NCBI GenBank assembly: GCA_036271555.1
Contig: DATBAK010000019.1
Location: 62,001-126,000, forward strand
DNA: 64,000 nucleotides
From: Acidimicrobiia bacterium
GTDB lineage: Bacteria > Actinomycetota > Acidimicrobiia > IMCC26256 > PALSA-610
Direction: 5' to 3'
Positions within the stretch are counted from its first letter, which is position 1. Each line of letters opens with the position of its first letter. The position numbers and the translations under genes are program-made. Under the pieces are notes generated by a model. That model had not been told where the DNA came from, searched no databases, and saw only the letters and a list, made by a program, of their open reading frames with translations. Positions 22,588-64,000 of the stretch are shown one piece after another.

Positions 22588-22678
22588 CGGAGGTGGCAGG
22601 AATCGAACCCACCGGACGGGGATCGCCCGTCCCACTCGTGTTGAAGACGAGGGAGGCCACCAGACCTCGTTCACCTCC
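22588..22678 (-). tRNA. selC: tRNA-Sec (anticodon TCA)
   Basis: 91 nt from GGAGGTGA to the discriminator G at 22588. Read on the minus strand it has a 7-8 bp acceptor stem (GGAGGTG/CACCTCC), a GAGG/CCTC D-stem, an anticodon arm CTCGT-CTTCAAC-ACGAG with TCA at the centre, a long variable arm with a 7-bp stem (GGACGGG/CCCGTCC), and a T-loop TTCGATT. UCA anticodon with a long variable arm is the selenocysteine tRNA pattern. CCA is not encoded (GCCG follows). An opal suppressor tRNA-Ser/Leu is the only alternative. No selA, selB or selD lies in the window. Confidence 0.85.
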
Positions 22679-51169: not shown

Positions 51170-54142
51170 TCAGAAGAGCCGCAGGCGGTGCGCGATCGCG
51201 GCGGCGTCGGTGCGGCGCGCGACGCCGAGCTTGGCGAGGATGTTCGACACGTGCACGCTCGCGGTCTTGCGGCTGATGAAGAGCGCGTCCGCGATCTCGC
51301 CGTTCGAGCGGCCTTCCGCGACGAGCCGCAGCACCTCCGACTCGCGCGGCGTGAGCCCGAGGCGTTCCGCCGCGTTCGCAGCCGAGCCGTCCGCGTCACC
51401 GCCCTCTGAATCAGCAGCGGGCGCGATCGTGACGACGAGTCGCGCGCGCTTCGACAGCGCGGCGATCTCCTCTTGCAGCGGCGTCGCGCCGAGCGCGTCG
51501 GCGATCGTCGCCGCTTCCTTCAGCGCGGCGACCGCGTCGGGCGCGCGATCCGACTCGACCAGTGCTTCGCCGAGTCGGAACAGGCTGTACGCCTGCGGGA
51601 ACGGCTGGTGCGTCTCGAGCCACGCGTCGGCCGCCGTCTGCCAGGCCGAGGGCTCGGGCGTGCCAACCGCGCGGGTGAGCTCCGCCGTCGCGAGGTGCCC
51701 TTCGGCCACGGCGGCCGGGAAGTCGGGGAGGCGTGCGATCATCGCGCGCAGCGCATCGATCTGTTGTGCAGACGTGCCGTCGTCGACGCGGCGTTCGTCG
51801 CGAGCCTGCTGCGCGAGGTCGGCTTCGACGCGGACGGCGACGCGCAGGAGCTCCCATCCGTAGCGCGTGCCCTCGCAGTTCTCGATCGTGAACCCTTCAC
51901 GCGCGAACGCGCGCGCCTCGTCGAGCCGGCCGAAGAGCCGCGCGACCTCGGCGCGCAGCGCGCAGATCTGCACGTACTCCTGCGACGGCTGCCAGTCGAG
52001 GCCGAGCAGCGCCCGCATCGCCGTGATCTGCTCGGCGGCCGCTTCGGCTCCATCGCGGGCGAGGACCAGCTCGACGAGGTTGAGCCGGAGCCAGATCTCG
52101 CTGACGTCGGTTCGCGCGAGCGCGTCCTGCATGACACGCTCGGCTTCGTCCCATTGGCCGAGCCACGTGAGCGACTCCGCGAGGTTCGCCGCGAGGTACG
52201 AGCCACGGCTCCGGAGCAGACCGACCTCACGCGCCTGCTCGAGTCCTCGGCGCGCGATGTCGACGGCCGCTGCGCCGTTCCCGGCGACCTCGAAGACGTG
52301 CGCGAGGTTGACCGCCGCGCGCAACGCGCTGTCGTACTCGCCGAGCGACTCCGCCAGCGCGGCCGCTTCCTGCAACCACGCGATCGCCTGCTCCATGTCG
52401 GCGAGCGTTCGGGGTGTCGTGCCGAGCGTGATGAGCGGGATCACGAGGAGCTGGGGTTCGCCGGCTGCACGCGCGGCGTCGACCGCGTCGTGAGCAACCG
52501 CGATGACGCGGTCTGTCGCGCCCTCCCAGTACTGCATCACGCTCGCCAGCGTGCCGAGCACCTGCGCGCGTACCGGACCCGCGTCGGGCACGAGGCGCTG
52601 CGCGGTTTCGAGGTCGCCGAGCGCGGTCTCGCGGTCGCGCTCGCGCAGCACTCGAGCTCGACGCTCGAGCGCGAGCGCCCTGCGAATCGCGTCGCCTTCC
52701 GAACCGAGCTCTTCGATGGTCTCGGTCGCGAGCTTGACCGCGCGGTCGAGGTAGCCGGCCGTCGCCTCGACGTCGCTCGCGAGCTCGAGCAGACCGACGT
52801 GGTCCGTGCCCGCCACCGCGGCGGCGTCGGGCACCGCGTCCCAGATCTCGAGCGCGCGACTGACGTGCGCGGCAGCGTCGGCGACCGCGTACGCCTGCCG
52901 TGCCTCGCGCGTCGCGAGCATCGCGGCGTCGAGCGCGCGCGGGAGATCGTGTGCCGCGAACCGGTGGAGTGCGATCGCGCTCGCGACCGAGCCCGCGTCC
53001 GCGAGCGACGGGTCGGCGACGAGCGTGTCGGCGTACGCGGTGTGCACGCGCGCGCGGGTACCCGGTAGGAGGTCGTCGTAGATCGCGTCCTCGACCAACG
53101 CGTGACGGAACGCGAATGCGCCGGCGTCGTCGACCGCGAGCACGTGCTGCTCGACCGCTTCGCGCAGTCGCGCCTCCAACTCCGCTTCGTCGAGACCGCT
53201 CACGACGGTGATCAACCGATGCGAGACACGCCGGCCGCCGACGGCGAGCAGCTGGAGCACGCGCTGCGTCGGCTCACTGAGCCGCTCGACGCGCGCGAGC
53301 AGGACGTCGCGCAGGTGCGGTGACAGCCCGCGGCGGTCGCCCGACTGGATGACCCCGATGACTTCTTCGACGAGGAACGCGTTGCCGCCGGAGCGCTCGA
53401 TCACGTCGTCGAGCAGCTGACCTTCGGCCGCGTGCCCGAGCATGCTCGCGAGCTGCGCGGCGACGTCGTCGCGTCCGAAGCGCTCGAGCGGCAGATGCTC
53501 GACGATGCGGTGGCGCTCGAGCTCGGCGAGCAGCGGACGCAGCGCATGCCGGCGGTCGATCTCGTCGGCGCGGTACGTCGCGACGAGCAGGAATCGCGAG
53601 CCGCGCACCGAGCGGACGAGGAAGCTCAGGAAGTCGAGCGTCGAGCGGTCGGCCCAGTGCAGATCCTCGATGACGAGCACGAGCGGGCGCTCGTCGGCGA
53701 GCCGTTCCAGCAGTCCGAGCAGCAACTCGAACAGACGCCCGGTACCGACCGCGTCGGATCCGTCGTCGTGACGATCGTTCGGGCCGGGCGCGGGCGCGAG
53801 CTCGAAGAGCACGCGCGACAAGTCGCGGCGCGCGGTGCCGAGCAACGCGTCGAGATGCTGCGCCTCGGTCGTGCGCACGAGATCGCGCAACGCGTCGGCG
53901 AGCGGCGCGAAGGGCAGGCCCTCGCCCGCGAGCTCCACGCTCGACCCGGTGAGCACGCGTGCACCGTCGGCCGCGGCGCGTGCCGCGGCCTCGTGCACGA
54001 GCCGGGTCTTGCCGACACCGGCCTCGCCTCCCACGAGCACCACCGCGGGATCTCCGCTCGCGCTGCGCTCCTGCGCGGCCGCGAGCCGTGCGAGCTCCTT
54101 GGTGCGTCCCACCATCTCGGGTGTGACGAACGGTGCCGGCAT
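51170..54142 (-). CDS. LAL-type LuxR transcriptional regulator with N-terminal AAA ATPase
   Basis: 990 residues. Walker A VVLVGGEAGVGKTRLVHEAA (about 31-50), Walker B LVLVIEDLHWADRSTLDFL (about 160), a helical TPR-like middle of about 600 residues (ADMEQAIAWLQEAAALAESL and similar), and a C-terminal LuxR HTH (LGLTPRESEVLRLVAEGRSN, DALFISRKTASVHVSNILAK). This is the MalT/LAL architecture, in which effector and ATP binding activate transcription. The start at 54142 is supported by TACGCT 7 nt upstream. A partial paralogue lies at the window's right edge. Targets are unknown; the neighbouring secreted proteins are candidates. Confidence 0.92.
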   Translation of the reverse strand: MPAPFVTPEMVGRTKELARLAAAQERSASGDPAVVLVGGEAGVGKTRLVHEAAARAAADGARVLTGSSVELAGEGLPFAPLADALRDLVRTTEAQHLDALLGTARRDLSRVLFELAPAPGPNDRHDDGSDAVGTGRLFELLLGLLERLADERPLVLVIEDLHWADRSTLDFLSFLVRSVRGSRFLLVATYRADEIDRRHALRPLLAELERHRIVEHLPLERFGRDDVAAQLASMLGHAAEGQLLDDVIERSGGNAFLVEEVIGVIQSGDRRGLSPHLRDVLLARVERLSEPTQRVLQLLAVGGRRVSHRLITVVSGLDEAELEARLREAVEQHVLAVDDAGAFAFRHALVEDAIYDDLLPGTRARVHTAYADTLVADPSLADAGSVASAIALHRFAAHDLPRALDAAMLATREARQAYAVADAAAHVSRALEIWDAVPDAAAVAGTDHVGLLELASDVEATAGYLDRAVKLATETIEELGSEGDAIRRALALERRARVLRERDRETALGDLETAQRLVPDAGPVRAQVLGTLASVMQYWEGATDRVIAVAHDAVDAARAAGEPQLLVIPLITLGTTPRTLADMEQAIAWLQEAAALAESLGEYDSALRAAVNLAHVFEVAGNGAAAVDIARRGLEQAREVGLLRSRGSYLAANLAESLTWLGQWDEAERVMQDALARTDVSEIWLRLNLVELVLARDGAEAAAEQITAMRALLGLDWQPSQEYVQICALRAEVARLFGRLDEARAFAREGFTIENCEGTRYGWELLRVAVRVEADLAQQARDERRVDDGTSAQQIDALRAMIARLPDFPAAVAEGHLATAELTRAVGTPEPSAWQTAADAWLETHQPFPQAYSLFRLGEALVESDRAPDAVAALKEAATIADALGATPLQEEIAALSKRARLVVTIAPAADSEGGDADGSAANAAERLGLTPRESEVLRLVAEGRSNGEIADALFISRKTASVHVSNILAKLGVARRTDAAAIAHRLRLF

Positions 54143-54149
54143 CGAACGC

Positions 54150-54155
54150 AGCGTA
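54150..54155 (-). promoter_or_regulatory. -10 element of the LuxR-type gene (leaderless)
   Basis: On the minus strand TACGCT ends 7 nt before ATG 54142. Confidence 0.5.
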
Positions 54156-54215
54156 AATGCGGAGAGCGGGCGGCCACCAAGGGCCGCCCGCTCCGAGCCG
54201 ATCGTCACGCGCTGA

Positions 54216-56258
54216 TCACGCGTGGTCATCGTTCACGATCGTCTGCACGACGTGCGGCGTGGCGACGGTCGCGTTCGCCGCGCCGCCGAGGTTCACGAAG
54301 AACGTCTCGTTGCCCTCGACCCTACGGTCACCGTCGATGACGACGCTGATGACCGCCGACGTCTGGCCCGCGGGGATCGTGACCGTGCCCGACGTCGCGA
54401 GGTAGTCCGAGCCTGCGGTCGCGGTCCCGTCGGCCGTCACCCAGTGGACGGTCACGTCGGCGATCGCAGGCGCGCTGAGGCGCACGGCGATGGCGCGGGT
54501 GCGCGTGCCGACGTTGCCCTCGTTCGCCGAGGTCGACGCCACGCTGATCTTCGACGCGGCCGCGACCTTGATCGTCTGCACGAGCTTCGCCGCGGTGCCC
54601 ACGCCGTTCGTCGCCTGCAACGTGAAGTGGAACCGTCCCGCCGCCGCCGGCGTGCCGGTCAGGGCGCCCGCGGACGAGAGGACGAGACCGTTCGGGAGCC
54701 TGCCCGAGAGCAACTGCACGGTCGGTCGAGGCGTGCCCTCCGTGCCGTACGTCAAGGCGAACGGGTGCCCGACCTGTGCGGCGGGTGGCGTCGCGGGGTC
54801 GAACGCCGGGGCGGTCCGCGCCGCAGTCGCCTTGAACGCCGCGGCAGCCAGGCGCTTCTCGCAGAGCGCCGTGATGCGCGCGGTGCCCTTCGTGCTGCCG
54901 GCGACGACCGTGCCGGGGTCGGCGTTCCCGTTCGCGTCGGTCGTGACCGAGATCGCGTGCGGCGACGACGCGTCGGCCGCGGCGAAGCTCACGAGCCCGT
55001 CGTAGTCGACGAACGACACCGAGCATCCGGCGATCGGGTCACCGACCGAGTCGGTGACGTGGGCCACGGGGTCGTGCGCGAACGCCGTCCCGACGGTCGC
55101 GGAGGCGGTCGCGGGCGTGAGCGTCACCTTCGACGGGAGTCCCGGCGCGACGTCGACCTCTTCGACCCAGCTCGTGAGGCCGGCTTCGTTGTACGCGTTC
55201 ACCGTCATCATGTACGTGCCGGCCTTCGTCGGCGTGCCGGAGAGGACACCCGAGTTGTCCATCGTCATGCCGGGTGGCAGCGCGCCGGTCGCCGCGAGCA
55301 GCGGCTGCGGCCAGCCGGTCGCCGAGTACTGCGTCGCCGCGAACTCGCCGGCCGTGGGCTGCAAGGCGGGCGCCACGATGGGCTGGGGCGCGACCGCGGT
55401 CCCGAAGAGCAGGCTCACCGAGCCGTTGCCGCCGATCGACGACGTGAGTCCGTTGTAGAGGTCGGCCCAGGGCGTCACGTACGACGAGCCGCCGCCGCCG
55501 CTGCCGTCACCCGCGCCGCCGCCGCCGCCGTAGTAGCCGGCACCGCCGCCACCACCGCCATTGCAGCCGTCGGCGCCGCCGCGGCCGCCCTGCTGGTAGT
55601 CGCCCACGCTCGCGAAGTTGTTGCCGCCGTCGGTGCCGACGCCGGGGACGCCACCGACCGATTGCGTCCCGCCGCCCGCGGCGTGGCTCGGGTCGGGGTC
55701 GACGCTCGTGCCCGGGTCGCCGTTCGGCACGTCGCCGTTGCCGCCGCGCATCTGGAAGCGCGCGCCGCCGCCCGCGCCCGCGACGAACATCGGGTAGTCG
55801 ATCTGCTCACCGGAGAAGAACGCGGTCTCGCCCCCGCCGCCCCCGCTGGCGTGGCAGTCCGTTCCGACCGCGCCGACGCCGCCGCCGCCGAAGCCGTAGC
55901 CGCCCGCGCCGCCGAGCACCTCGCCCACGGCGTCGGTGACGCTGCCGCCCTCACCGCCGACGATGACCGTGTAGGTCTGGCCCGCGACGATCGGCACCTC
56001 GGCCTCGACGAGCGCGCCGTTGCCGCCCGGTGTCGTGGTGCCGTCGGACGCGGTCTGCGACCCGCCCTGCGCGCCGCGAAGCACGATCTCCGCGGAGTCG
56101 ACGCCCGCGGGTGCCGTCCACCGGTAGAGCGCGGGACTCGTGAAGTCGATCTCGCCGGTCTGGGTCGCGTGCGCGGCTCCGGCTCCGAGCGTCGCCATCG
56201 TCGCGGCCATCGCGACGGAGCCGGCGAGCACGGTGACGGAGCGAAGGAACGGTCGCAT
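54216..56258 (-). CDS. Secreted Gly-rich protein with Ig-like and Calx-beta domains
   Basis: 680 residues. Signal peptide 1-32 (VTVLAGSVAMAATMATLGAG, AHA). Residues 35-290 are Gly-rich with YTVIVGGEGGSVTD and AGGYGFGGGGVGAVG, similar to the glycine-rich domain of secreted bacterial proteins. Then come putative-Ig repeats (QPLLAATGALPPGMTMDNSG, RPTVQLLSGRLPNGLVLSS; He_PIG type), a Big_1-like segment, and a C-terminal Calx-beta domain (STSANEGNVGTRTRAIAVRL, GSDYLATSGTVTIPAGQTSA, GDRRVEGNETFFVNL). Likely surface or matrix protein, perhaps calcium-binding. GAGGAGAAG upstream fixes the ATG. A conserved 74-nt element precedes it. Confidence 0.82.
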   Translation of the reverse strand: MRPFLRSVTVLAGSVAMAATMATLGAGAAHATQTGEIDFTSPALYRWTAPAGVDSAEIVLRGAQGGSQTASDGTTTPGGNGALVEAEVPIVAGQTYTVIVGGEGGSVTDAVGEVLGGAGGYGFGGGGVGAVGTDCHASGGGGGETAFFSGEQIDYPMFVAGAGGGARFQMRGGNGDVPNGDPGTSVDPDPSHAAGGGTQSVGGVPGVGTDGGNNFASVGDYQQGGRGGADGCNGGGGGGAGYYGGGGGAGDGSGGGGSSYVTPWADLYNGLTSSIGGNGSVSLLFGTAVAPQPIVAPALQPTAGEFAATQYSATGWPQPLLAATGALPPGMTMDNSGVLSGTPTKAGTYMMTVNAYNEAGLTSWVEEVDVAPGLPSKVTLTPATASATVGTAFAHDPVAHVTDSVGDPIAGCSVSFVDYDGLVSFAAADASSPHAISVTTDANGNADPGTVVAGSTKGTARITALCEKRLAAAAFKATAARTAPAFDPATPPAAQVGHPFALTYGTEGTPRPTVQLLSGRLPNGLVLSSAGALTGTPAAAGRFHFTLQATNGVGTAAKLVQTIKVAAASKISVASTSANEGNVGTRTRAIAVRLSAPAIADVTVHWVTADGTATAGSDYLATSGTVTIPAGQTSAVISVVIDGDRRVEGNETFFVNLGGAANATVATPHVVQTIVNDDHA

Positions 56259-56281: not shown

Positions 56282-56355
56282 CTGACTCGAGGATCGGGCT
56301 AAGGCAGCGGACCCGACATCGGGCCAGTGCTTCAAAGTCGCGGGCGCCTACCTCA
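56282..56355 (-). promoter_or_regulatory. 74-nt conserved leader element, copy A
   Basis: Lies 24 nt before the start of the Gly-rich secreted protein. It shares with copy B (62588-62661), at identical internal spacing, CCCGATGT, eight other bases, CTGCCTTAG, two bases and CGATCCT; the total length is also 74 nt in both. TGAGGTAG at its 5' end can pair with CTGCCTTA, using two G-U pairs. The block GGCGCCTACCTCA (plus strand 56343-56355) is repeated 32 nt further upstream at 56375-56387. Confidence 0.55.
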
Positions 56356-56848: not shown

Positions 56849-58180
56849 ATGGCGAAGCGACACATCCGACTGCAGGCACTCGTGATCGCTGCGGCGACAT
56901 GCATAGCGGGCATCACGAGCGTCGCGGCTGCTTCGTCCGCGGTCGCGGTGAGTACGGCGTGTCCCGCGCCGGCCCTTGCGACCGTGCCGTGTGTCGTCGC
57001 CGCGCAGAACAACACGAGCAGTCCGACGCTCACGCCGACGCCGACCCATCTCGTCACGACGAGTGTCGGGGCGGGTCGGTACTCGATCGTCGCGAGCGCG
57101 GTGATCTTCAACTCGTCCGGCACCGGCGAGCCCCTTCCGTTCGCGTACTGCACGCTCAAGGCCGGCGGCGCGCTGCTCGACCAGACCGTCGCGTACACCA
57201 TCGACCAAGCCACGACCGTGACCCTCCTCGCCGCCGCGAACTTCACGGCGACGACGCGACTCACCATCTCGTGCGCGGATCCGAGGGGCTTCGCCTCGCT
57301 GACCGCCGACTACGCGCGGTTGCAGGCGACGCGTTTGGGAACCTTGCGCCAGCCGGCCGAAGGGACGAGCAAGGCCGTGAAGTGTCCGCATGCGACCTTC
57401 GCGTCGATCCCGTGTGCGATCCAGGTGCAGACGAGCACCCCGGTCGCGATTGGCGGGTCGCCGACGCCGGTTGCGACGGTCGAGCTCGAGCCCGGTTTGT
57501 ACACGATGATCGGTCGTGTCGCGTTCCGCGCGACGTCGAGCGGCAGCGCGAACGTCGCGTGCATGAGCGACAACGCCGTCATCGGACTGAGCGAGGGAAC
57601 GGCCTTCGTCCTTCAGGGCAAGACCGCCGCGCTCTCGCTCGGCACCTCGTTCGCGCTGGGTGCGTCGCCGCAGCCCGTCGAGGTGACGTGTTCGCTGCTG
57701 GGCGGTCCTCAGGCGACGGTCGCGAGCGTGCGGCTCACGATCGTGCGCGTCGCGACGCTCGTGCGGGCGACCGGCGCGCAGGCGAAGTGCCCGCTCAAGC
57801 GGACGACCGTGCCGTGCGCGATCACGGCGCAGGGCGGTGCGTCGACGCTGACCAGCACGCATTCGGTCGTCGCCGAGGCGAAGGTCGCGGCGGGTGACTA
57901 CGTCGTGTCCGCCGCCGTATCGGTCGAGAGCGACGATCCGGCCGGTGGTTTCCATTTCGTCGACTGCGCGCTCGTCACCGGGGCCGGCGAGTTCGGTGGG
58001 GCGTTCGAGGTCGTCGGCGGGCAAGGCGCCACGTTGTTCATGCTCGACGTGCACACGAACGGCAAGAAGGCGGACGTGACGCTGTCATGCGCGGACGACA
58101 GTGGTAGCGGACAGCTCAGCGTGACGGAGGCCGAGATCACCGCGACCCGCGTCGGGAGTCTGAGCTCGATCGGGTCGTGA
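56849..58180 (+). CDS. Secreted three-repeat protein of unknown function
   Basis: 443 residues. Signal peptide 1-33 (LQALVIAAATCIAGITSVAA). The mature part is three similar units of about 130-140 residues, each opening with a CP..(A/R)T(V/I)PC(V/A)I.. pattern (CPAPALATVPCVVAAQ, CPHATFASIPCAIQVQ, CPLKRTTVPCAITAQ), then a G.Y...A.V strand and a C near the end of the unit (SCADP, TCSLL, SCADD). The conserved cysteines suggest disulfides. No known family. GGGAGAA 7 nt before the ATG is the ribosome site. Confidence 0.75.
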   Translation: MAKRHIRLQALVIAAATCIAGITSVAAASSAVAVSTACPAPALATVPCVVAAQNNTSSPTLTPTPTHLVTTSVGAGRYSIVASAVIFNSSGTGEPLPFAYCTLKAGGALLDQTVAYTIDQATTVTLLAAANFTATTRLTISCADPRGFASLTADYARLQATRLGTLRQPAEGTSKAVKCPHATFASIPCAIQVQTSTPVAIGGSPTPVATVELEPGLYTMIGRVAFRATSSGSANVACMSDNAVIGLSEGTAFVLQGKTAALSLGTSFALGASPQPVEVTCSLLGGPQATVASVRLTIVRVATLVRATGAQAKCPLKRTTVPCAITAQGGASTLTSTHSVVAEAKVAAGDYVVSAAVSVESDDPAGGFHFVDCALVTGAGEFGGAFEVVGGQGATLFMLDVHTNGKKADVTLSCADDSGSGQLSVTEAEITATRVGSLSSIGS

Positions 58181-60352: not shown

Positions 60353-61558
60353 ATGCGGGGGCGGAGCATGGGGCGCGACAGGACGGGTTTCGTCGTTGCG
60401 ATCGCGTTGTCGACCGCGTTCGCCTTCGGTTTCGCAGGCACACCGGCGGGCGCCGCGCCGGCGCCGGTGCAGGGAACGCTGAACTCCGTGTCGTGCACCG
60501 CGACGACCGCATGCGTCGCCGTGGGTTCGTACGTGAACGCCGGTAACACGGTCACGCTGGCGGAACGATGGAACGGCACCGCGTGGACGAAGCAGGCCAC
60601 GCCGAACCCCGCGGGCGGTACCGAGATCGCGCTCAACGGCGTGTCGTGCACGTCGGTGACGAACTGCCTCGCGGTCGGCTCGTACTTCGACGACAGCGGG
60701 ATCGCGCCGCTCGCCGAGCTCTGGAACGGCACGAAGTGGACGATCAAGACCGTCCCGCTCCCGACCGGTGGACGGGGTGGTGGGTTCAACGGCGTGTCGT
60801 GTGTCGCGGCGAAGTGCACCGCGGTCGGCTTCTTCGCCGACAGCGCGAATCAGAACGAGGCCCTCGCCGAGTCGTGGAACGGCAGCACGTTCACCGCGCA
60901 GAGCGTGTCCGCGCCCGCCGGCGCGACGACCAACACCTTGAACGCGGTGTCGTGCAGCCCCGCGCCGAGCGTCCACTGCGAAGCGGTCGGCTGGTACTAC
61001 CACGACGGTTTCTTCATCTCGACGACGCTCGCCGAAGGGTGGGACGGCACCGCGTGGTCGCTTCAGACTGCGCCCGTGCCGCCCAACGCCGAAGGGGGGA
61101 GCGTCCCGACCGGCATTTCGTGCACCGCGCCGCGCGCGTGCACGGCGGTCGGGAACGCGTTCAACGGTGGCGACGCGCCGGTTCCCGGCTGGGCGCAACG
61201 CTGGAACGGCACCGCGTGGTCGAACCAGAACCTGCGCAGCCCGAAGACCGCGATCTTCAGCCAGCCCGCCGCGGTCTCGTGCAGCACGCCCGGGCCGCCG
61301 TGCACCGCGGTCGGCCGCTACGCCAACGGCTCGACGTTCCTGAGCTTCGCGGCGGGGCGCACGGGCACGCGCTGGAAGCCGGAGAAGACGCCGCAGCCGA
61401 AGGACTCGACCGGCTCCGCGCTCGGCGGCGTCTCGTGCGTGTCGCCGACCGCGTGCACGGCGGTGGGCAACGCGTCGAACGCAGGGAACGTGCCGCTGAC
61501 CCTCGCCGAGCTGTGGAACGGCACGAAGTGGACGATCCAGAAGACGCCGGTTCCGTAA
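60353..61558 (+). CDS. Secreted protein of seven VSC..C.AVG repeats
   Basis: 401 residues. Signal peptide about 1-34 (GFVVAIALSTAFAFGFAGTP, AGA). The mature chain consists of about seven repeats of some 50 residues, each LNGVSCTS...C.AVG.Y followed by LAE.WNGTKWTIQ..P.P.G, probably blades of a beta-propeller with one disulfide each. Similar proteins are common in actinobacterial secretomes; the ligand is unknown. A TAGGGT -10 lies at 60332-60337, 15 nt upstream of the ATG. ATG 60368 is an alternative start. Confidence 0.82.
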   Translation: MRGRSMGRDRTGFVVAIALSTAFAFGFAGTPAGAAPAPVQGTLNSVSCTATTACVAVGSYVNAGNTVTLAERWNGTAWTKQATPNPAGGTEIALNGVSCTSVTNCLAVGSYFDDSGIAPLAELWNGTKWTIKTVPLPTGGRGGGFNGVSCVAAKCTAVGFFADSANQNEALAESWNGSTFTAQSVSAPAGATTNTLNAVSCSPAPSVHCEAVGWYYHDGFFISTTLAEGWDGTAWSLQTAPVPPNAEGGSVPTGISCTAPRACTAVGNAFNGGDAPVPGWAQRWNGTAWSNQNLRSPKTAIFSQPAAVSCSTPGPPCTAVGRYANGSTFLSFAAGRTGTRWKPEKTPQPKDSTGSALGGVSCVSPTACTAVGNASNAGNVPLTLAELWNGTKWTIQKTPVP

Positions 61559-62587: not shown

Positions 62588-62661
62588 CTAAGGCATCGGC
62601 GCCGGATCTGAGCCTTCCTCCCGATGTGCGAGTGCCTGCCTTAGGTCGATCCTGAGTACAG
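62588..62661 (+). promoter_or_regulatory. 74-nt conserved leader element, copy B
   Basis: Lies 20 nt before the 40-aa gene. Its ends are a perfect 8-bp inverted repeat (CTAAGGCA at 62588 and TGCCTTAG at 62637). Internal blocks and spacing equal those of copy A at 56282-56355. Confidence 0.55.
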
Positions 62662-62681: not shown

Positions 62682-62804
62682 ATGATCCCGACAACGACGC
62701 AATTCACCTGGAACCTCGTCTCCGACGAGCGCCGAGCGCGCGAGATGGCGGCCGCGTACTGGCGACTGGGCCGGCACGTGCGGACGCGTCGCCGTGTGGC
62801 GTAG
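62682..62804 (+). CDS. 40-aa small protein downstream of element B
   Basis: ATG 62682 with GGAGG 5-10 nt upstream (62672-62676). The product is short and amphipathic: MIPTTTQFTWNLVSDERRAR at the start and a very basic end (RHVRTRRRVA). The leader element, the Shine-Dalgarno and the matching codon use argue that it is real. No family known. It ends 19 nt before the ATPase gene. Confidence 0.55.
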   Translation: MIPTTTQFTWNLVSDERRAREMAAAYWRLGRHVRTRRRVA

Positions 62805-62823: not shown

Positions 62824-64000
62824 ATGCCGTCGGTGGTGTCGAGAGTCTCGAGTCCGGCGTTCATCGGACGGGCCGAGGCGCTCGCCCGGCTCGAGGCCGC
62901 GGTCGACCGGGCCGCGACGAGCGCCGCGACCGCGGTCGTCGTCGGCGGCGAGGCGGGCGTCGGCAAGTCCCGGCTCGTGCACGAGCTCGCGGCGCGCTGC
63001 TCGTACGCACGCGTGCTCCGTGGCGCGTGCATCGAGCTCGGCGACAGTGGTCCGCCGTTCGGACCCATCGTCGAGGTGCTGCGGACGCTCGTGCGCGAAG
63101 ACGGTGCGCCCGCGATCCGCGCCGCCGCGGGTCCTGCCGCCGACGAGCTCGGCCGGCTCGTCCCCGAGCTCGCGCCCGCGGTCGCCGAGGAGCGGTTGGA
63201 AGCTCACGGCGCGGGCCGCGTCTTCGAGGTCGTGCTCGCGCTGTTCGAGCGGCTCGCGCTCGAGCGCCCGCTGCTGATCGTCGTCGAGGACCTCCACTGG
63301 GCCGACCACTCGACCCGCCACGTGCTCTCGTACCTCGTGCACCAGCTCGGCCCGGCGCGGGTCGCGCTCGTCGCGACGTTCCGCAGCGACGAGATCAACC
63401 GCCGGCATCCACTGCGGCCCTTCCTCGCGGAGGTGGAGCGCAGCGGCCGCGTCGAGCGCATCGACCTGCCGCGCTTCGACCGCGACGAGGTCGCCGCACT
63501 CCTCGAGGGCATCCTCGACGCAGATCCTCCGACCGCGCTCGTCGACACCGTGTTCACGCGGGCCGAAGGCAACGCGTTCTTCACCGAGGAGCTCGTGGCC
63601 GCGGGCGCCGACCAGCCTGCGCTCGACCTGCCGCCGTCGCTGCGCGATGTGCTGCTCGTGCGGGTCGAGCGACTCTCGCCCCCGGCCCAGGAGCTGCTCC
63701 GCATCGCCGCGGCCGCGGGGCGCACCGTCTCCGACGCGCTGCTGGCCGCGGTCGCGCATCGCGACGACATCGAGCTCGCAGAACAGCTACGCGAAGCCAT
63801 CGAGCAACAGCTCATCGAACGGGTCGGCGACGACGGCTACGGCTTCCGCCACGCGCTCCTCCAGGAAGCGCTCGTCGGCGAGCTGCTGCCGGGTGAACGC
63901 GTCGACGTGCACGCCGACTACGCGCGCGCGATCAGCGAGCGGCCGGAGCGCGTCGGTGGCGACCGTGTGAACGTGACCGCATTGCTGGCACACCATTGGT
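62824..64000 (+). CDS. AAA/LuxR-type regulator ATPase (3' end cut by window)
   Basis: 392 residues visible, open to the window end. FIGRAEALARLEAAVDRAAT, Walker A VVVGGEAGVGKSRLVHELAA (about 38-57), Walker B LLIVVEDLHWADHSTRHVLS (about 150), RVALVATFRSDEINRRHPLR and the winged-helix-like region SLRDVLLVRVERLSPPAQEL. It is paralogous to the LuxR-type protein at 51170-54142, so a C-terminal HTH or an adenylate-cyclase partner is expected outside the window. ATG 62824 begins just before the conserved IGR motif. Confidence 0.88.
   Translation, partial: MPSVVSRVSSPAFIGRAEALARLEAAVDRAATSAATAVVVGGEAGVGKSRLVHELAARCSYARVLRGACIELGDSGPPFGPIVEVLRTLVREDGAPAIRAAAGPAADELGRLVPELAPAVAEERLEAHGAGRVFEVVLALFERLALERPLLIVVEDLHWADHSTRHVLSYLVHQLGPARVALVATFRSDEINRRHPLRPFLAEVERSGRVERIDLPRFDRDEVAALLEGILDADPPTALVDTVFTRAEGNAFFTEELVAAGADQPALDLPPSLRDVLLVRVERLSPPAQELLRIAAAAGRTVSDALLAAVAHRDDIELAEQLREAIEQQLIERVGDDGYGFRHALLQEALVGELLPGERVDVHADYARAISERPERVGGDRVNVTALLAHHW

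Follow-up and report, generated by a model that had tools for sequence, protein, structure and literature searches.

LAL regulators and their operators

LAL (large ATP-binding LuxR) regulators are numerous in actinobacteria, and to our knowledge few of their operators are known. In Actinoplanes sp. SE50/110, a MalT-like LuxR regulator acts through the palindrome TCATCC-N5-GGATGA, which lies over the -35 region and has its 3' end 34.4 +/- 1.0 nt before the transcription start (PMC7567727). The MalT box of E. coli and Klebsiella is GGGGA(T/G)GAGG (as summarised in PMC7567727). The S. coelicolor proteins SCO0877 and SCO7173 are LAL regulators, and the gene for SCO7173 overlaps that of an 89-aa hypothetical protein (PMC3282765). 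SCO4263/SlpR, a large AAA+LuxR protein, regulates the contractile injection system of Streptomyces and activates a neighbouring operon (PMC2000904, PMC8505568).

The window analysed here, a stretch of 64,000 nucleotides, contains two copies (A and B) of a 74-nt element that is conserved in sequence, position and symmetry and is closely linked to LAL genes. Judged from their sequence and context, copies A and B probably act as DNA operator-promoters for one group of LAL regulators; the LAL protein itself is the most likely binder and would thereby control its own operon.

Two copies of a 74-nt element

A sequence-only reading of the window had proposed that a regulatory element, its blocks set at constant distances, stands ahead of start codons as two 74-nt copies that share CCCGATGT, CTGCCTTAG and CGATCCT in the same register. 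Both the copies and their description were borne out: the three blocks are identical and in register at the two positions listed below. The pattern CCCGATGT-N8-CTGCCTTAG-N2-CGATCCT, for which a genome-wide search had been suggested, occurs exactly twice in 4,677,312 bases, both times in the window. Copies A and B were still the only whole-genome matches at three mismatches, and a reversed control pattern had no match in the whole genome. At up to two mismatches, the full pattern was absent from all 99 relatives searched; the exact A/B form is thus confined to this genome, which made it necessary to look for a less strict version.

With the two-block pattern and up to three mismatches, the window gave two matches, against a mean of 0.07 in dinucleotide shuffles, which never gave two. 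The expectation that identity would exceed that of shuffled controls held for the exact blocks, whose matching is beyond chance, but failed for the whole 74 nt, where 40 of 74 positions (54%) are identical, the chance level for all pairs across the 64-kb window. The signal resides in a 34-nt core with 25 of 34 positions identical, 24 positions lying in the exact blocks. The features of both loci are as follows.

56282..56355, minus strand: copy A, predicted operator-promoter of the operon 54216-56258 plus 51170-54229
56348..56355, minus strand: copy A TGAGGTAG box
56316..56323, minus strand: copy A right half-site CCCGATGT, the core, invariant in the logo
56299..56307, minus strand: copy A CTGCCTTAG, outer half-site or promoter spacer
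56290..56296, minus strand: copy A CGATCCT, -10-like CGANNNT (from the logo)
54216..56258, minus strand: secreted protein, 680 aa, first gene behind copy A
51170..54229, minus strand: LAL A, 1019 aa, with AAA_16, TPR and C-terminal GerE HTH
62588..62661, plus strand: copy B, predicted operator-promoter of the small ORF and LAL B operon
62588..62593, plus strand: copy B outer box CTAAGG
62606..62613, plus strand: degenerate left half-site of copy B, ATCTGAGC, separated from the core by 6 bp
62620..62627, plus strand: copy B right half-site CCCGATGT (from the logo)
62636..62644, plus strand: copy B CTGCCTTAG
62647..62653, plus strand: copy B CGATCCT, -10-like (from the logo)
62682..62804, plus strand: small Arg-rich ORF, 40 aa, MIPTTTQFTWNLVSDERRAREMAAAYWRLGRHVRTRRRVA, unmatched in Pfam and NCBIfam
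62836..64000, plus strand: LAL B, 990 aa, continuing past the window; complete as L025:4836-7808

Near copy A lie a second identical TGAGGTAG box (56387-56380) and a further CCCGATGT (56416-56409).

Genes behind the copies

The genes behind the two copies had been taken to be otherwise unrelated. This view had to be given up: both operons contain a LAL paralogue, and copies A and B, which are 6 kb apart, are thus linked by the encoded regulator. LAL A and LAL B are paralogous AAA ATPase-TPR-LuxR/GerE proteins that are 38% identical. LAL A carries an N-terminal AAA/STAND ATPase domain (PF13191, E 3.9e-31) and a C-terminal GerE/LuxR HTH (PF00196, E 4e-19), with which the C-terminal HTH region of LAL B aligns, and the Walker A columns G-x-AGVGK are invariant in the LAL alignment. 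With both ATPase and HTH present, the two proteins are classed by sequence as LAL regulators.

The secreted protein encoded first behind copy A contains a glycine-rich ALK/LTK GRD domain together with He_PIG and Calx-beta domains, and the end of its gene overlaps the start of LAL A by 14 nt. Further predicted secreted proteins, without a clear known family, are encoded between the two LAL operons (60353-61558 and 56849-58180). Elsewhere in the window is a selenocysteine tRNA (22589-22678, minus strand; Rfam tRNA-Sec, 63 bits), and the organism therefore probably makes selenoproteins.

Small Arg-rich ORFs of 34-84 aa are found just 5' of the LAL gene in most loci (L104-L177, and 62682-62804 in the window), and a small ORF lies between element and LAL gene in nearly all element-bearing GTDB LAL loci. 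These ORFs bear a strong coding signature, GC peaking at the third position in all 48 of those analysed, and those tested had no Pfam or NCBIfam match; the small protein is undescribed. Between the small ORFs of Streptomyces and those of this genome's taxonomic family, homology is at most weak (E 3e-4 to 5), so conservation is claimed for their position alone. The small Arg-rich protein is possibly a partner of LAL.

The element at LAL genes of this genome and its relatives

A blind scan of the genome at three mismatches returned a two-mismatch site (C34:9098), which stands 256 bp upstream of a third LAL gene of the subfamily in this genome. Eight loci of the taxonomic-family set, this one among them, carry the element 190-360 bp upstream of LAL. 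Similarly, 48 of 80 GTDB LAL relatives carry it in the 700 bp before the LAL gene, compared with 7.5% of control pieces. The element-bearing relatives are mostly Streptomyces, joined by Microbispora, Nonomuraea, Herbidospora, Kibdelosporangium, Amycolatopsis, Streptacidiphilus and a Chloroflexi MAG. The sequence-only reading was to be abandoned if related genomes had no copies upstream of genes; such copies were looked for, and the element is present before the LAL genes of relatives. L084 and L085, which hold the closest orthologues of LAL A, have neither the element nor the secreted protein in front, and the LAL gene on C85 of this genome is also without the element.

The LAL subfamily has multiplied in this genome. 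Near the predicted start of its fourth LAL gene (C77; L083) is the sequence ATCTGAGG-AGTTCT-TCCGATGC (G000:C77 ~2490-2550). By its sequence, this site is a weaker form of the putative operator in the copies.

Model R1, which uses sequence only, was derived from 45 sites, all in other genomes and none in this one. When applied to the 4.68 Mb of this genome, it ranked the C34 site first (E 3.4e-6), copy B second (0.012) and copy A tied third (0.16). In the window, copies B and A were the best two matches, 8 bits above the next, with copy A alone scoring weakly at 14-15 bits. The best match in each of eight other genomes was always a LAL promoter, and 14 of the 15 matches below 1e-6 in 296 phylum genomes adjoin a LAL gene. 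Strong matches number about one per genome and are LAL-linked. Furthermore, element and LAL co-occur: at cut-offs of E <= 1e-5 for the element and E <= 1e-70 for LAL, 15 of 17 element-bearing genomes have a LAL match compared with 13 of 278 others (P = 8e-16; 295 phylum genomes, own genome left out), many of the matching genomes belonging to one genus.

Architecture of the element

The family core is the inverted repeat RCATCGGG-N6-CCCGATGY. In the phylum-wide logo, CCCGATGY is invariant and the left half reads AGATNCGG/ACATCGGG. A stretch of CCCCCCTGGG or CCTTAG is also conserved, and the CGANNNT box follows at 27-33 bases from the core start. Because the A/B core served as bait in site collection, its conservation is partly built in; that of the flanks (left half and CGANNNT) is not. 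Among the family sites, inverted-repeat identity peaks at a spacer of 6, with 4.75 of 8 positions matching against at most 2.85 at other spacers. A fixed-spacing inverted repeat, as in MalT/LuxR-type dimer operators, is thus found over the family, with copies A and B weak in the left half (2/8 and 3/8 matches, respectively). The L150 site is a perfect palindrome, ACATCGGG-CACGCT-CCCGATGT, and in the G219 site, ACATTGGG-AGGTCT-CCCAATGC, which falls just short of one, the two halves have changed in step (CATTGGG / CCCAATG). Pair counts agree with such two-sided changes. A 16-bp direct repeat, GATGCGG...GATGTGG, gave a similar average (4.56/7 vs 4.75/8); perfect palindromes and two-sided changes fit the inverted repeat, and the direct repeat was rejected.

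The conserved, -10-like CGANNNT box is about 20 bp downstream of the inverted repeat, and no match to a canonical sigma-70 promoter was found. When the Actinoplanes palindrome-to-start distance is applied, transcription would start near 56282 (copy A) and 62661 (copy B), the ends of the two 74-nt copies, which would place CGANNNT at -10 distance. A start site at the CGATCCT end, as had been suggested, is compatible with the conservation of CGANNNT at this distance in the phylum-wide logo, the start itself being predicted. Hairpins occur right 3' of the predicted promoter at several loci (e.g. L105, L166, L177 and 56290-56266 in the window).

Elements away from LAL promoters

At L239 and L247, the element directly follows a LAL/LuxR gene and precedes a DUF5995 gene; this placement, between the 3' end of the LAL gene and the DUF5995 gene, is conserved in two genera. 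Elements after a LAL/LuxR gene are also found at G219, before the gene of a secreted protease-like protein that is followed by a methyltransferase gene, and at L280, before a SnoaL-like protein. Copy A, with its secreted protein, shows the same arrangement as the DUF5995, protease-like and SnoaL elements. Two Streptomyces elements (L276 in G284; L281 in G129) stand before an MFS transporter with no LAL gene within ~8 kb, and this transporter is a possible distant target.

Proposed mechanism and alternative explanations

In the proposed mechanism, the element would act as a LuxR/GerE-type inverted repeat, invariant in its right half and looser in its left, with outer boxes of the CTAAGG/CCTTAG type and a position over the -35 region. 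The promoter under the operator would use CGANNNT as its -10-like box. Genetic linkage and co-occurrence point to LAL itself as the binder; it would bind probably as a multimer and, like MalT, in an ATP-dependent manner. LAL would control its own operon (small Arg-rich ORF and LAL) and sometimes a neighbouring target gene, and we infer that this control is activation. Copy B would thereby drive the small ORF and LAL B, and copy A the secreted glycine-rich protein and LAL A. Because the same switch precedes the regulator gene in Streptomyces and many actinobacteria, self-control of LAL genes is most likely.

Alternatively, the element could be a conserved promoter or operator of LAL operons that is bound by an unlinked regulator or sigma factor, with LAL as its target. 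The Streptomyces elements before the MFS transporter, far from any LAL gene, and the 2 of 17 element-bearing genomes that lack a strong LAL match agree with this explanation. However, more sites would normally be expected of an unlinked regulator than the roughly one strong site per genome found at the LAL locus, and elements that follow LAL/LuxR genes and precede unrelated genes resemble target operators of the adjacent regulator, which makes an unlinked binder unlikely. The promoter of an alternative sigma factor, one of the initial suggestions, is likewise unneeded, given about one strong LAL-linked site per genome and a core that is a 6-bp-spaced inverted repeat; sharing of the promoter by many unlinked genes, as for an alternative sigma factor, was not found. 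Since the inverted-repeat core is tied to LAL genes, a LuxR/GerE-type dimer operator over the predicted -35 region is indicated. It is highly improbable that common descent alone accounts for the copies, through recent local duplication of an upstream region and LAL with an ordinary promoter. The copies are 6 kb apart and their LALs are paralogous, but at 38% identity between the LALs and 54% between the 74-nt copies, a neutral copy would have lost the 24 exact positions. Moreover, the same core persists across the phylum, and logo conservation is higher inside the core than outside.

A structured 5' leader of the LAL operon, riboswitch- or attenuator-like, is very unlikely. Many of the 58 leaders between CGANNNT and the small ORF do fold better than shuffles (overall mean z -1.6), that of copy A reaching z -4.0, yet RNAalifold gave no consensus structure for 21 Streptomyces leaders, and the conserved part, being upstream of the -10-like box, is probably left out of the transcript. 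The CTAAGGCA/TGCCTTAG pairing, from which a riboswitch-like leader had been suggested, exists in copy B without being conserved: 49.2% of cells were paired in 45 relatives, compared with 52.2% in shuffles, and the stem was rejected. The only Rfam families in the window were tRNA and tRNA-Sec, with none at the element, and the idea of an antisense target found no support.

The favoured operator-promoter reading extends, as a tentative possibility, to a phylum-wide, self-contained module that would comprise an autoregulatory LAL operator-promoter, LAL, and a small Arg-rich protein from an undescribed family that acts as its partner or inhibitor, the operator having passed to neighbouring secreted-protein genes in lineages like the present one. 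No description of the motif was found in the open-licence full-text papers searched. A predicted binding site with clear symmetry and about one occurrence per genome offers a direct handle on an orphan LAL regulator, whose range extends from Streptomyces to lineages not yet cultured, and draws attention to the undescribed small protein whose ORF accompanies it. The element is widespread, specific and testable in laboratory Streptomyces.

Comparison with known systems

SCO4263/SlpR shares the large AAA+LuxR architecture. A link to this regulator was rejected, as the stretch upstream of the sheath genes in three Streptomyces contractile injection clusters is without the element. SCO0877 and SCO7173 belong to the same LAL family, and the passages of PMC3282765 consulted define no operator and report no such element for them. 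MalT of E. coli and Klebsiella likewise combines ATPase, TPR and GerE HTH and has its site next to the -35 region; its box differs in half-site from the element, whose core is an inverted repeat and which has no maltose link.

The Actinoplanes MalT operator is alike in several respects. A LuxR/MalT-like regulator is paired with a palindrome over the -35 region whose 3' end is ~34 nt before the start (both positions being predicted for the element), the regulator gene is, or for LAL would be, among its own targets, and the half-sites share CATC/GATG. In contrast, the halves of the element are CATCGGG/CCCGATG with a CATC-GATG gap 5 nt longer, and the element has extra outer CTAAGG/CCTTAG boxes. 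Whereas the Actinoplanes regulator serves 17 starts, the element is found about once per genome, on LAL's own operon, where a small Arg-rich ORF separates it from the LAL gene.
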